Source: Rubrobacter sp.
Lineage (GTDB): Bacteria > Chloroflexota > Chloroflexia > Thermobaculales > Thermobaculaceae
NCBI GenBank assembly: GCA_016781735.1
Contig: JADDPT010000092.1
Location: forward strand, 1 to 53,241
Length of the DNA: 53,241 nt
Direction: 5' to 3'
Position numbers and translations under genes: made by a program. Shown here in pieces: positions 36,518 through 43,425 of the stretch (positions are counted from its first letter, which is position 1; each line of letters opens with the position of its first letter). Below the pieces are notes generated by a model that saw only the letters and a list, made by a program, of their open reading frames with translations, had not been told where the DNA came from and did no database searches.

Positions 36518-37801
36518 CTAACCCCACTCGATCTCGACCGTGCCTATGCGCAGCGTGTGCCCCGGCTCAATGCCGGCCTTCTCCAACTCCTGGGTGATGC
36601 CCATGCGGTCCATCTCGCGTTCGAGCCGGCGAACGGCCTCGTCGTTCGAAAGGTCGGTCATCACGGCGATCCGCTCTATGGACGGACCATTCACTACCCA
36701 GGTCCGGCCGGTCTTACGGCGCACCTGGTATCGTGTGGTGTCTACCTCGAGCGGACGCAAGACATCCGTTTCCGCGGGCGGTGCAAAGCGACCTGGCGGT
36801 GGAGCGTTCTTCAGCTCCTCTGAGAGCCGCAGCACCAGCGAGTCCAGCCCAATTCGGGCGGCGCCGCTCACCGGAAGCGCGTCGGCCACGCGGGCCGAGA
36901 GCTGACTTTCCAGCTCCTCCCAGTTCTCCCTCGCCTCGGGCATATCGATCTTGTTGAAGGCCAGCACGCGCGCCCTTGTGGAGAGCTCCGGCCTGTACGC
37001 CTGTAGCTCCTTTTCGAGCACCTCCAAGTCCTCGGTGGGCGACCTGCCTTCCTGTCCGGAGCCGTCCAGCACGAAGAGCAACACACGCGTTCGTTCGATG
37101 TGCTTGAGAAACTGGTCCCCAAGCCCGACGCCCTGGTGCGCACCCTCCACGAGTCCCGGTATGTCCGCGATCACAAAGGAGTCCTCCGCCGCGCCGGGCA
37201 CCTGCACCACGCCAAGCTGCGGCTCGAGCGTAGTGAACGGGTAAGGTGCGATCTTCGGAGTTGCGGCCGTCAGTGCGGCGAGCAGGGTGCTCTTGCCGGC
37301 GTTCGGAAAGCCTACCAGCGCCACGTCGGCGAGCAAACGCAGCTCGAGTTGGAGAACACGCTCCTCGCCCGGCTCTCCCTTCTCTGCGAATCTCGGCGTC
37401 TGATACGTGCTTGTCGAGAAGTGAACATTCCCCAGCCCTCCGCGTCCTCCACGGGCCACGAGGGCGCGCTCGCCAGGCTCGGCTAGATCGGCAATCACCT
37501 GGCCGGTGACATCGTCGAGTACCACCGTGCCGACGGGCACCTGGAGCTCGAGGTCGTTCCCCGACTTCCCGTGCTGCTTCTGCTTCAGCCCCTGCCCGCC
37601 CGGCTGGGCCTTGAAGTGACGCTTGTACCTGTAGGCGAGGAGCGTGTTCAACTGTGGATCCGCGACGATATAAACGGAGCCACCGCGTCCGCCATCACCG
37701 CCATCCGGTCCCCCGCGGGGTGCGTTTTTCTCGTGACGAAGGCTTGCGCTTCCGTTTCCTCCCGCACCAGCCCGTATCTCAATAGTAGCTCGATCGTACA
37801 T
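36518..37801 (-). CDS. obg: GTPase Obg (ribosome assembly)
   Basis: An essential GTPase in late 50S assembly and stress control. 427 residues in three domains. The Gly-rich Obg fold is at about 1-157 (FYDRATIEIRAGAGGNG-like start, GGDGGRGGSVY), the G domain has GFPNAGKST, DIPGLVEGAH and FNKID, and the C-terminal OCT domain is at about 345-425 (YQVRRKTGRTWVVNG, ending TLRIGTVEIEWG). A TATAGT at 37855-37850 may be its -10 box. Confidence 0.97.
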   Translation of the reverse strand: MYDRATIEIRAGAGGNGSASLRHEKNAPRGGPDGGDGGRGGSVYIVADPQLNTLLAYRYKRHFKAQPGGQGLKQKQHGKSGNDLELQVPVGTVVLDDVTGQVIADLAEPGERALVARGGRGGLGNVHFSTSTYQTPRFAEKGEPGEERVLQLELRLLADVALVGFPNAGKSTLLAALTAATPKIAPYPFTTLEPQLGVVQVPGAAEDSFVIADIPGLVEGAHQGVGLGDQFLKHIERTRVLLFVLDGSGQEGRSPTEDLEVLEKELQAYRPELSTRARVLAFNKIDMPEARENWEELESQLSARVADALPVSGAARIGLDSLVLRLSEELKNAPPPGRFAPPAETDVLRPLEVDTTRYQVRRKTGRTWVVNGPSIERIAVMTDLSNDEAVRRLEREMDRMGITQELEKAGIEPGHTLRIGTVEIEWG

Positions 37802-38079: not shown

Positions 38080-38370
38080 TTATCTGGGTACGATGTAAAT
38101 GTACATCTCTATCTCGGTTCTATGACCGCCACTTATCACCGTTTCGGGCACCGTCACCAATCCAGCCCTCACCTCCGTGCCAATTGGTGGTAGGCGCGCC
38201 TCGCCGGGTAGTGCCAGGTACGTGCACTTTCGGTCAGCACCGTCCTGCACACAGGCCGTTCCATTCGCCTCGAACACATGGATCAGTCTCCCGCCTACGA
38301 CCTCGACGGGGTCTCCCCGTGCCCACCAAAGGGACAACGGCCACAGGATTATGATAAGGACAGCGAACAG
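38080..38370 (-). CDS. Small hypothetical membrane-anchored protein
   Basis: From TTG 38337 the frame gives 85 residues. Reading back without a stop to CTG 38370 adds a hydrophobic stretch (LFAVLIIILWPLSLWW) that makes a convincing membrane anchor, so translation may start at a non-ATG codon there. The soluble part has two Cys and a beta-rich look (VEVVGGRLIHVFE, then EIEMYIYIVPR). No known domain. A 7-codon frame ends two bases before the CTG, which could allow reinitiation. Its reality is uncertain. Confidence 0.4.
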   Translation of the reverse strand: MFAVLIIILWPLSLWWARGDPVEVVGGRLIHVFEANGTACVQDGADRKCTYLALPGEARLPPIGTEVRAGLVTVPETVISGGHRTEIEMYIYIVPR

Positions 38371-38628: not shown

Positions 38629-40419
38629 TCAATCCAGGTAGTCTTGAAGGTGCCTCTTGTAGTTCTCCCTCCGAAGCTTCCTCAGCGCCTTCGACTCGAT
38701 CTGCCGTATTCGCTCGCGGGTAACTCCGAATGCTCGCCCCACTTCTTCAAGAGTTCTCGGCTGCCCGGCGTCTAGTCCCAGCCGGAAGCGCATCAGGTCG
38801 CGCTCCTCCTCGGGCAGACTGTGCAGCGCGGTTGCCATGTACTCCTTAAGCCTCGCATCCTCCGCCTCAGCCTCAGGCTCGCTGAGGTTGTAGCGCGCAC
38901 CGAACTGACTCACACTTAGCGGCTTTCCGTCCTGGAGTCCGAAGCGAACGCAGGCAAGCTCGCGATCGCGCGCGGGCATCGCCTGCTCGGCAGCAAGCAG
39001 TACTTTCTCCTCGGCGGCGGCGACACGCTCGGCCGGTGTCTCCAGGATCGTGCGTACTTCCTCCCGCGATCGCGGCTCGTTGTCGAGGCCAAAGCGCAAT
39101 CGCAGCACGCTCCGCTCGCGCTCCGATAGTTGGTTCAGCACCCGGTCTATCTGCTCGCGCAAGCTTTTCTGAGAGGCGGCGTCCGCCGGCGCGGCGGCCT
39201 TAAAGTCAGGTATGAAGTCTCCGAGCGCCGAGTCGTCTTCCTCGCCAACGGGCGTCTCGAGTGAGACTGGCTCCTGCGCGATCTTCAGCACCTCGCGGAC
39301 TTTCTCAACGGTGATGCCTAGCTCTTCGGCGATCTCCTCCTGAGTAGGCTCGCGTCCGAGGTCCTGCAGCAGGCGGCGTGTCGTTTGCAGAACCTTGTTG
39401 ATCGCCTCGCCCATATGTACGGGTATTCGGATTGTGCGGGACTGGTCGGCGATGGCCCGTGTGATCGCTTGGCGGATCCACCATGTGGCGTACGTAGAGA
39501 ATTTGTAGCCCTTTTGGTGGCGGAACTTCTCGACGGCGCGGATGAGACCTATGTTGCCTTCCTGTACCAGGTCCAGGAGCGATATACCCCTGTTAGTGTA
39601 TTTCTTCGCGATGCTTACGACGAGCCGCAGGTTGGCCTGTATGAGGTGCTCCCGAGCTTGTTCGCCTGCGATGTGCCACTTTCTGACTTCCCGTTTCACC
39701 TGCTGGTCGTGCTCAGCGAGATACGTCATCATCGCTTGCCTGTCGGGCCAGTAGGAGTGTTCGTTGAGCAGCGCCGCCTCCTCAGGTGGCAGCAGCTCCC
39801 TCAGCAGGTCCAGCTCTATCGTGGCTGAGTCGAGATCGGACTCCGCGAGCTTCTCCTCGATGGGGTTGTCATCGACGGCCAGCTCAGGGGAGGACTCCTG
39901 CGGCTGTACGGCGCGCGTTATTAGTTCCAGACGGGTGGCCGGCAACTCCTCGTCGGGCCAGAGGCTGTTGAAACGAGCCGTGACCCTTTGCATCGAGTTC
40001 TCAAAACTGTTGAGTATCGCAAGACCGAGCTCGTCGGCCCCTAGAGCATCTCCGCCCTTCGGCAGCAACCGCTTGAGGTACTCGCCTCGCTCCAGGGCCC
40101 TGGCCTGCCGGGTCTCTTCTGAGTGCGACAGGAGGCTGACCTTACCAATCTCCCGGAGGTACATGCGCACCGGGTCATCAAGGCTGATGCCGTCGAGGTC
40201 CGCTGCGATATCCGCGCTCTCATCCGGCGGGTTGTCCTGCGCCCGGCCGTGGGACCAGCCACCGCCAGTGGAGGCGGTACCGTCGGGAGGCGGCGCCTCC
40301 TCATACCGTGCCCGCGAGCGCCTGCCGGCCGAGCTTACCTCGTCCGCCGAGTATTGGCGCTTCTCGCCGTCTGTGCCTGATCTCTGCGCCATACTTGCTG
40401 CCACGGTCCTTACAGTCAC
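38629..40419 (-). CDS. rpoD: Principal RNA polymerase sigma factor with three tandem region-4-like modules
   Basis: 596 residues. Acidic, Pro-rich N-terminus to about 75; region 1.2 at 80-115 ([17 protein letters not shown]); a non-conserved insertion to about 250; region 2 at 253-325 with [31 protein letters not shown] and [11 protein letters not shown]; region 3 at 333-405. Then come three region-4-like repeats: 429-478 ([16 protein letters not shown]), 480-531 ([16 protein letters not shown]), and 533-584 ([16 protein letters not shown]). Only the third keeps the -35-reading helix [21 protein letters not shown] 40419 has GAGGG 7 bases upstream. It is last in a dgt-dnaG-rpoD operon. Confidence 0.96.
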
Positions 40420-40504: not shown

Positions 40505-42361
40505 TTACTTCTCTCGCGAGTCCTTGAAGTACGGACTCCTGGGAGGATCAAGCTCCCTCACCTCGCCTGCCAGCACGGGCACTATCTCCAGCAGTGCCCG
40601 GACACCCGCCTCATCTCCGGCATTCATCGCTTCTTTCAGCAGCAGAGAGTGCTGGTTGATCTGCTCCTTCAGCCGCCGCATCCGAATGGTACGAAGCCGC
40701 CGCTCAAGCTCGATGGGCTGTTCAGTGCTAAGCAGCTCAGGCTGCGACTGTGTGAGCTCCACGAGCGAGGCTGCACTGCCCTTTAGCGTGTCGTCAACCG
40801 TGGACAGCAACCGGTCCGCGGTCAGCTCCGATCCTATCTCTCGCATCCGCTCGTACAGCTCTCGGTCCTGGCTCCTCTCCAGGCCGAGCATGAAGTCAGG
40901 AGGGACGCTGGGCAGTAGCCGAGGATGCTTGAGGAGCAGCGCAAGTGCGAGCTCCTCGGGCGTGACCTGGCTGATCACAGAGAAGTTCTGAGCCTCCTCC
41001 CTGCCTCGTTTGCCCCGACGGCTGCGGACGACGCCGTGTATCTCGTGCTCGTCTATGCCAACGAGTCGCGCCAGTTCGGCCTCGTAGTGCGCCCGCTCGA
41101 TGGGGTTGCCGAGGTCGGCCACGACGGGCGCGAGCTCCTCCACGGCCTGGGTGCGTCCTGCAGGCGTGCTGAGGTCGGCTGTTTCCCGCACCACGGTGAA
41201 GAAGTGATCCACGACCGTCCGCGCGTTCTCGACAAGATCGCGCCAGGTATCCGGGCTCTTGCGGATCAAGGTGTCGGGGTCTTCGCCCCGGGGCAGCCGG
41301 GCGATCCTCACGGTGAGCTCGAGCTCGCTGCCCGAGGATACGAGGCGTCCGCGCGACCGGATCTCCATCTTGCGTCGTTGCGCCGAGTCGCGTAACACCT
41401 CCCAGCCGCGCATCGCCGCCGTGTCTCCCGCAGCGTCGGCATCTAGGGCTAGGCAGACGTACCGGGTAAGCTTCGAGAGCGTACGGACGTGTGCGGGTGT
41501 AAGAGCGGTGCCTAACGTTGCCACAACGTTCTCGAACCCGTGGGCATGGGCGGCGACCGCGTCGATGTAGCCTTCTACAACAACAGCGCGGTTCTGTGTC
41601 TTGATCGCACCTTGAGCCAGGTCGAGACCGTACAGGTGCGCTCCCTTGACGAAAACGGGCGACTCCGGGCTGTTCAGGTACTTTGGCGTGTCGTCGCCCA
41701 TCGCCCGGCCGCCGAGGGCGACGTAGTTACCGTCCCTGTCACGGATTGGAAAGGTTATGCGCTTGCGGAACCGGTCGTAGTGTCCGCCACCCGCACGCTC
41801 GACTGCGAGCCCCGCAACCAGGATGTCCTGTGGTGCGTACCCACGTCCCTTCAGGAACTTCAGGGTAGTGTCCCAGGAATCCGGAGCGTAGCCCAGCATC
41901 CATAACTCCCAGCTCGCGCGCTCCACGCCACGACCCTCGAGGTACTTCCGCGCTGCTTCGGCCTCCGGTGAGTTCAGCAGCAGGTGGTTGTAGAACCTTG
42001 CAGCCAAACGGTTTATTTCGTGCAGCTTGCGGCGCTCTGCATCGTCTTCTGGCTGCGCCGGCTTTGGTTGCTCGTAGCTTACACCGGCGCGCTCCGCTAG
42101 TTGCCGCAGGGCGTCCTTGAACTCGATGTTTTCGGTGTCCATCAGGAACGAGATCACGTCACCACTCTTGCCGCAGCCGAAGCAGTGGTACGAGCCGCGC
42201 TCGGGGAAGACAACAAAGGACGGGGTCTTCTCCTGGTGGAAGGGGCACAGGCCCTTGAGATGCTTCCCAGCTCGGCGCAGCTCGACCTTAGAGCCGACCA
42301 GCTCGACAATATCAAGCCGGTCCTTGACCTCGTCAATCACCGTACGGCCGCTGGAGGTCAC
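40505..42361 (-). CDS. dnaG: DNA primase
   Basis: Makes RNA primers at the replication fork. About 618 residues. The zinc-binding domain has C39-P-F-H42 and C60-F-G-C63; the TOPRIM core follows with VVVEGYIDAVAAHAHG and CLALDADAAGD; the C-terminal helicase-binding part is helical and poorly conserved. AAGGAG sits one base before ATG 42367 but seven bases before GTG 42361, so GTG is preferred. It directly follows dgt and precedes rpoD by 85 bases, a form of the old macromolecular-synthesis operon. Confidence 0.96.
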   Translation of the reverse strand: MTSSGRTVIDEVKDRLDIVELVGSKVELRRAGKHLKGLCPFHQEKTPSFVVFPERGSYHCFGCGKSGDVISFLMDTENIEFKDALRQLAERAGVSYEQPKPAQPEDDAERRKLHEINRLAARFYNHLLLNSPEAEAARKYLEGRGVERASWELWMLGYAPDSWDTTLKFLKGRGYAPQDILVAGLAVERAGGGHYDRFRKRITFPIRDRDGNYVALGGRAMGDDTPKYLNSPESPVFVKGAHLYGLDLAQGAIKTQNRAVVVEGYIDAVAAHAHGFENVVATLGTALTPAHVRTLSKLTRYVCLALDADAAGDTAAMRGWEVLRDSAQRRKMEIRSRGRLVSSGSELELTVRIARLPRGEDPDTLIRKSPDTWRDLVENARTVVDHFFTVVRETADLSTPAGRTQAVEELAPVVADLGNPIERAHYEAELARLVGIDEHEIHGVVRSRRGKRGREEAQNFSVISQVTPEELALALLLKHPRLLPSVPPDFMLGLERSQDRELYERMREIGSELTADRLLSTVDDTLKGSAASLVELTQSQPELLSTEQPIELERRLRTIRMRRLKEQINQHSLLLKEAMNAGDEAGVRALLEIVPVLAGEVRELDPPRSPYFKDSREK

Positions 42362-42372
42362 GCTCATACTCC

Positions 42373-43425
42373 TTAGTACGCCCAAGGCTGGGGGGTGAAC
42401 AACTCAAGGAAGAGGGATGTGGCGTAACGGTCAGTCATTCCCGACACGTAGTCACACACGTTCCAGCCCTGCTCTCCGGACTCGACACGGGCACGGAGCT
42501 CGTCCGGATGTTTCTCGAAGTACTCGTACAGCTGAGTCACCACCATGCGGGCCTTCGTCGCTTCCCGTTCCACGTCCGGATGCTTATATACCTCGCGGAA
42601 CATGTAATCGCGCAGCGCGTCGGTCGCCGCGAGTACGTCGGGGCTCATCCGCACGCCGTCGCCTATCTCACCTGTCGCGATACCGTAGCTCTCGCAGATG
42701 ATGCCGTGCACCATCGCCTCTATACGTTCACTGTGCGAGATACCCAGCACCTGTCGGGATTTCTCGGGGAGCTCTTCGACGCGCATCAATCCCGCACGCA
42801 GTGCATCGTCTATATCCGCATTCAGGTACGCCACCGCATCACACATCCGCACCACCGTTCCCTCAACTGTGCCCGACGCGTTCAAGAGAGGCTGTGCAAC
42901 ACTCTCCTGATGCTTGGAGTGGTAGGCGATGCCGTCGCGCACCTCCCACGTAAGGTTGAGACCCTGGCCGTCCTTCTCAAGCGTGTCGAGCACCCTGAGG
43001 CTCTGCTGAGAGTGGACGAACCCCCCAGGGCAGAGGAGACCTAGCGCTTGCTCGCCTGCGTGGCCAAACGGTGCATGGCCGACGTCGTGACCGAGCGCTA
43101 CGGCCTCCGTGAGGTCCTCGTTCAATCGAAGGGCTCGCGCGATCGTTCGGGCAATCTGGGCAACTTCCAGCGTGTGCGTCAGTCGGGTGCGATAGTGGTC
43201 GCCCGACGGGGAGAAGAATACCTGGGTCTTGTACTTGAGCCGCCGGAATGCCTTAGAGTGGAGGATGCGGTCGCGATCGCGAGCGAAGGCCGTTCGGACC
43301 TGCGAGTCAGGCTCAGGAATACGTCGCCCCCGACTCCGGCCGCTCTTAGCCGCCAGCGGTGAGAGTTGTTCCTCTTCACACTGCTCGGTGCGCCGCCGTA
43401 TCTCGTCCAGCCGTGAGTTGTCCAC
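42373..43425 (-). CDS. dgt: Deoxyguanosinetriphosphate triphosphohydrolase-like protein
   Basis: An HD-domain dNTPase that releases tripolyphosphate from dNTPs and helps balance nucleotide pools. 350 residues. RDRILHSKAFRRLKYKTQVF lies near the N-terminus, followed by RTRLTHTLEVAQIARTIAR with the first metal His and GHDVGHAPFGHAGE with the HD pair. The start is GTG 43425. A TATACT at 43472-43467 is a likely -10 box. The stop lies 11 bases before the preferred dnaG start. Confidence 0.93.
   Translation of the reverse strand: MDNSRLDEIRRRTEQCEEEQLSPLAAKSGRSRGRRIPEPDSQVRTAFARDRDRILHSKAFRRLKYKTQVFFSPSGDHYRTRLTHTLEVAQIARTIARALRLNEDLTEAVALGHDVGHAPFGHAGEQALGLLCPGGFVHSQQSLRVLDTLEKDGQGLNLTWEVRDGIAYHSKHQESVAQPLLNASGTVEGTVVRMCDAVAYLNADIDDALRAGLMRVEELPEKSRQVLGISHSERIEAMVHGIICESYGIATGEIGDGVRMSPDVLAATDALRDYMFREVYKHPDVEREATKARMVVTQLYEYFEKHPDELRARVESGEQGWNVCDYVSGMTDRYATSLFLELFTPQPWAY

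Follow-up and report, generated by a model that had tools for sequence, protein, structure and literature searches.

Three tandem region 4 modules in the primary sigma factor of Thermobaculales

Few parts of the bacterial transcription machinery are as conserved as region 4 of the primary sigma factor, which contacts three sites simultaneously: the −35 box, the flap tip and the RNA exit channel. Exactly one region 4 is the usual RpoD architecture, though this is no requirement for group 1 membership. In the window considered here (the whole stretch of 53,241 nucleotides analysed), an initial annotation proposed that region 3 of the principal sigma factor is followed by three tandem region-4-like modules. 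Are the additional modules region 4, which of the three reads promoters, and what might the others do?

The gene and its locus

The gene, rpoD (sigA), is on the minus strand at 38629..40419; from its GTG start it encodes 596 aa, and the frame is open to 611 aa. Directly upstream on the same strand is dnaG, for DNA primase (40505..42385, minus), and this dnaG-rpoD order is also present in Thermobaculum terrenum and at loci L041–L043. Downstream of rpoD, again on the same strand, are an 85-aa ORF (38080-38337, minus) and an Obg-like GTPase ORF (36518-37801, minus). Pfam matches cover regions 1.2, 2, 3 and 4 of the protein, and the NCBIfam C-terminal signature TIGR02393 (RpoD_Cterm) scores 408.8 bits against a cut-off of 354. 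Region 1.1, which is poorly conserved in sequence generally, gave no Pfam match. Among the sigma factors listed for the window's genome, this is the only one whose alignment to the query begins at region 1.2. With regions 1.2 to 3, the RpoD C-terminal signature and the dnaG-rpoD housekeeping locus all present, it is on sequence grounds a group 1 sigma-70 factor, and promoters and contact residues indicate indirectly that it has a −35-reading region 4 at canonical geometry. What it lacks is the canonical architecture with exactly one region 4.

Evidence for three modules

Module 1 (M1; residues ~427–478, 38986..39141, minus strand) has a canonical region 4.1, recognisable over a 16-residue stretch, and a helix-turn-helix that is degenerate in the ten residues of the recognition segment. 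Module 2 (M2; residues ~479–531, 38827..38985, minus) is a fully degenerate region 4 without any −35 contact residue. Module 3 (M3; residues ~532–596 with its tail, the module itself being ~532–583; 38632..38826, minus) has an altered region 4.1 (again seen in a ten-residue stretch) followed by an intact region 4.2 and the C-terminal tail; its intact ten-residue −35 recognition helix is at 38695..38724 (minus). The conserved Leu of region 4.1 recurs at residues 431, 481 and 535. The ORF, residues and coordinates given at the outset hold, with two adjustments: successive modules begin at intervals of 50 and 54 residues (+104 in total), and the ten-residue M2 segment equivalent to the recognition helix of M3 lies one residue earlier than first given.

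The curated gathering cut-off of the Pfam family Sigma70_r4 (PF04545) is 24.1 bits. It is exceeded by M3 alone (residues 531–583, 65.7 bits) and by M1 alone (residues 427–474, 30.7 bits); M2 alone does not reach it and has no Pfam match. When the whole RpoD is searched with hmmscan, three PF04545 stretches are marked, of which that at 39280-39378 is probably the region 3 helix-turn-helix. M2 was recovered by profile-profile comparison. With hhalign profiles of six family members each (E-values being pairwise), M1 matches canonical Chloroflexia region 4 with P=98.5% and E=3e-15, M2 matches it with P=96.5% and E=1e-9, and M2 matches M1 with E=1e-6. The proposal that the extra modules arose by duplication is supported.

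In each of the three modules, AlphaFold modelling of residues 415–596 gave helices at good confidence (mean pLDDT 86, pTM 0.78), and a module's recognition helix continues as the first helix of the module that follows. M2 folded alone, from a 6-sequence alignment, had a pLDDT of 87. Its top 50 PDB matches in Foldseek are nearly all sigma-A or sigma-32 region 4 or holoenzyme sigma chains, and not unrelated helices (prob ~1.0, rmsd ~2.2 Å over 54–62 aa, TM ~0.6). With so small a domain the E-value of these matches reaches only ~1e-2, and it is therefore the agreement in fold that carries the assignment. Foldseek with the whole three-module model was uninformative, as it stitched region 4.1 of M1 to region 4.2 of M3. 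Profile comparison and predicted fold together identify M2 as a sigma region 4, and the three-module architecture of Thermobaculales RpoD is near certain.

Which genomes carry the triplication

All seven Thermobaculales genomes sampled (the window's genome and G001–G006, from five genera) have the triplication, as judged by a full-length match in a survey of the order. In G001–G006, 284–286 residues follow the WWIRQAI motif, in contrast to 180–181 in single-copy relatives, and the repeats align without a single indel across the seven genomes. One of the seven, G004, is presumably that of the cultured T. terrenum; NCBI places Thermobaculum in Thermobaculales, Chloroflexia. Thermomicrobia and their neighbours had been suggested as the group in which to look for the same feature. 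A survey of RpoD did find it throughout the sampled order, but the host is not one of the Thermomicrobia, and neither a probable Sphaerobacter nor any other canonical relative in the sample has it. In a 400-genome Chloroflexota sample, no genome outside Thermobaculales gave the full 112-column match, and partial matches of ~30 bits (L064–L066, L077) proved on inspection to have a single region 4. When 84,980 named species were scanned, five loci were returned, one of them annotated as Rubrobacter and the others as Thermobaculum, Chloroflexia or Chloroflexi; the motif used was family-specific, and independent duplications in other phyla could escape it. Contig JADDPP010000502.1, labelled Rubrobacter sp. 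LC5_2, encodes a Thermobaculaceae-type RpoD, and the name of that MAG is probably wrong.

An assembly artefact or chimera is ruled out by the same structure being present in seven genomes, one of them assembled in two contigs. The best explanation is that region 4 was tandemly triplicated before the Thermobaculales family radiated. Literature searches of open-access papers found no description of a tripled region 4 in a primary sigma factor, and this two-domain extension of a highly conserved part of RNA polymerase, in one family (Thermobaculaceae), appears to be undescribed.

Residue retention and selection

The first two copies had been thought to have lost the Arg and Gln which read the −35 box. 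The contact positions, which we take to be Arg584, Glu585, Arg586, Arg588 and Gln589 (E. coli numbering), show this to be fully so for M2, where no contact residue is conserved, and partly so for M1, where Arg584, Arg588 and mostly Gln589 are lost but the equivalents of Glu585 and Arg586 are kept in 6/7 genomes. M3 was correctly described as keeping its recognition helix: all five contacts are there, and its helix-turn-helix is invariant in the seven genomes. To judge by these residues, only M3 is able to read a −35 box. Retention in M1 and M3 is complementary. Region 4.1 is 63% identical to the canonical consensus in M1 versus 40% in M3, and for region 4.2 the corresponding values are 21–29% in M1 versus 80–97% in M3; the canonical 4.1 is that of M1 and the canonical 4.2 that of M3.

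Between congeners, dN/dS is 0.06–0.09 for M1, 0.03–0.15 for M2 and 0–0.01 for M3. Within the RpoD C-terminal region, M2 has diverged most. M1 and M2 are nevertheless both under purifying selection and are therefore not debris.

Promoter geometry

It had been suggested that the extra modules would change promoter geometry, and also remarked that promoters in the window look ordinary. Whole-genome spacer statistics refute the suggestion and bear out the remark. In T. terrenum, 816 upstream regions from 2.0 Mb of the genome were scanned for TTGACA/TATAAT pairs, with one mismatch per box and spacings of 0–130 bp. At 17 bp, 33 pairs were observed for 6.5 expected, and at 18 bp 28 for 6.5; no other spacing within the 0–130 bp scanned showed a comparable enrichment. 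Exact TTGACA-N-TANAAT sites in the seven family genomes number 135, of which 16, 28 and 60 have spacers of 16, 17 and 18 bp (104 together). The tRNA promoters of T. terrenum, which are expected to depend on the principal sigma factor, have their spacer peak at 18 bp. With spacers of 16–18 bp, the −35 box is read by a region 4 in its usual place, and only M3 is able to do this.

A lean towards 18 over 17 bp is seen in Thermobaculaceae and in some single-copy Chloroflexia (G000–G006, G028, G038). The 17:18 bp counts are 28:60 in the family versus at least 55 to at least 21 in distant relatives (p=2e-7); in nearer single-copy relatives they are 53:46 (p=0.04 with congeners removed). An 18-bp preference was dropped as a signature of the triplication, since nearer canonical relatives often use 18 bp too. 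T. terrenum also has a second RpoD-like sigma (L052, G004:C1:1151928-1153178), a protein of 467 aa in which region 1.2 is present and region 4 is single and canonical. Paralogous sigmas with one region 4, this protein included, could be partly using the same canonical-looking promoters.

The beta flap tip

In E. coli, region 4.1 is in the RNA exit channel and region 4.2 binds the flap-tip helix, and sigma region 4 counteracts pausing in initial transcription (PMC7948647). One residue of that helix, G907, belongs to the region contacted by AsiA (PMC6755090). The equivalent Gly is replaced by Ala or Ser in 6/6 family RpoB proteins and is Gly in the other relatives compared (~20 Chloroflexia and 29 across the phylum sample). 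All six Thermobaculaceae RpoB (L219, L223, L225–L228) have the flap-tip helix RAIF(A/S)EKAR, not RAIFGEKAR; a short, foreign-looking RpoB fragment from G002 (L229) has Lys at the position. Though it is one event on one branch, the change is in line with, and may hint at, an altered interface.

How the tripled region may work

The reading that we favour, with about an even chance of being right, is that region 4 was triplicated in Thermobaculales and its jobs were then divided. Region 4.1 of M1, continuous with region 3.2 and still canonical, would occupy the RNA exit channel as in other sigmas, and region 4.2 of M3 would dock on the flap tip and read the −35 box where it normally lies. What comes between (the M1 helix-turn-helix, M2 and region 4.1 of M3) would bulge out at the exit-channel mouth as a DNA-blind, sigma4-derived bridge. 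Such a bridge would be no promoter ruler; most likely it would offer a surface, built into the sigma factor, that contacts a regulator, the flap or nascent RNA and tunes how far region 4 occupies the flap in initial transcription and promoter escape. That 4.1 and 4.2 are retained in complementary fashion, taken with the family-specific flap-tip change, points to a role at the exit channel and flap over a passive spacer. The placement of M1 and M2 on the polymerase is here deduced from conservation. More tentative, and somewhat less probable than not, is the fuller version in which exit-channel (M1) and flap/−35 (M3) halves are separated by a cis-acting regulatory domain derived from region 4 and matched to the flap-tip change. 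M3 with its own 4.1 could instead act as a complete region 4, in which case that of M1 might be conserved for folding alone.

Two other functional readings are unlikely, to a like degree. M1 and M2 might be intramolecular decoys that compete with M3 for the flap tip and lower promoter binding until displaced, a built-in anti-sigma. The apparent keeping of the fold in all three copies, the high conservation of region 4.1 in M1 and the change in the Thermobaculaceae flap tip itself are consistent with this; however, 4.2, the part that binds the flap tip (PMC7948647), is the eroded half of both M1 and M2. Alternatively, a lineage-specific activator or anti-sigma factor might dock on the same modules, which would then bind proteins outside the polymerase. 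They keep the fold having lost DNA contacts, the surfaces of M2 vary fastest, and regulators such as AsiA, Rsd and WhiB often target region 4. WhiB-sigma4 complexes are among the Foldseek matches of M2, and the complex of sigma region 4 with AsiA has been described (PMC6755090). Yet no partner gene was identified, and the fast variation of M2 helices between genera is unlike a single conserved interface.

Non-functional persistence and a changed geometry can be given far less weight. A near-neutral relic, in which the duplication is tolerated and the modules do nothing but stay folded, would suit the divergence of M2, but the signs of purifying selection and the indel-free repeats across five genera make it very improbable. 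Hardly credible, lastly, is a division in which M1 stays on the flap and the −35 box read by M3 is shifted by as much as the array is long. In its favour, M1 is contiguous with region 3.2 and has the canonical 4.1, but both the seven genomes and the tRNA promoters show spacers of normal length and no further peak, and displaced geometry is ruled out on those statistics.

If the more tentative, fuller version is right, promoter escape would be regulated in a way so far unrecognised, and this in all the transcription of a bacterial order. With promoters normal and the 4.1 and 4.2 halves seemingly pulled apart by duplication, the Thermobaculales protein would be a natural case in which to separate their roles experimentally. 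Since the apparent T. terrenum of the sample is cultured, holoenzyme biochemistry and cryo-EM are feasible.

Comparison with known systems

With other group 1 sigma-70 factors (RpoD/SigA), the Thermobaculales protein has in common regions 1.2, 2 and 3, an intact −35 helix, the dnaG-rpoD order and −10/−35 promoters. It differs in the two extra modules of predicted sigma4 fold between canonical 4.1 and canonical 4.2, and in the altered flap tip of its partner subunit. ECF41 and other non-canonical ECF sigmas with C-terminal extensions are alike in having an extra regulatory domain fused near region 4. Their extensions are of a different fold and in alternative sigmas, whereas in Thermobaculales it is region 4 itself that is repeated, and in the primary sigma. 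Sigma region 4 and the flap-tip helix, with G907 among its residues, also take part in the appropriation of sigma by T4 AsiA (PMC6755090); AsiA, however, is a separate phage protein, and any such effect in Thermobaculales RpoD would be in cis.
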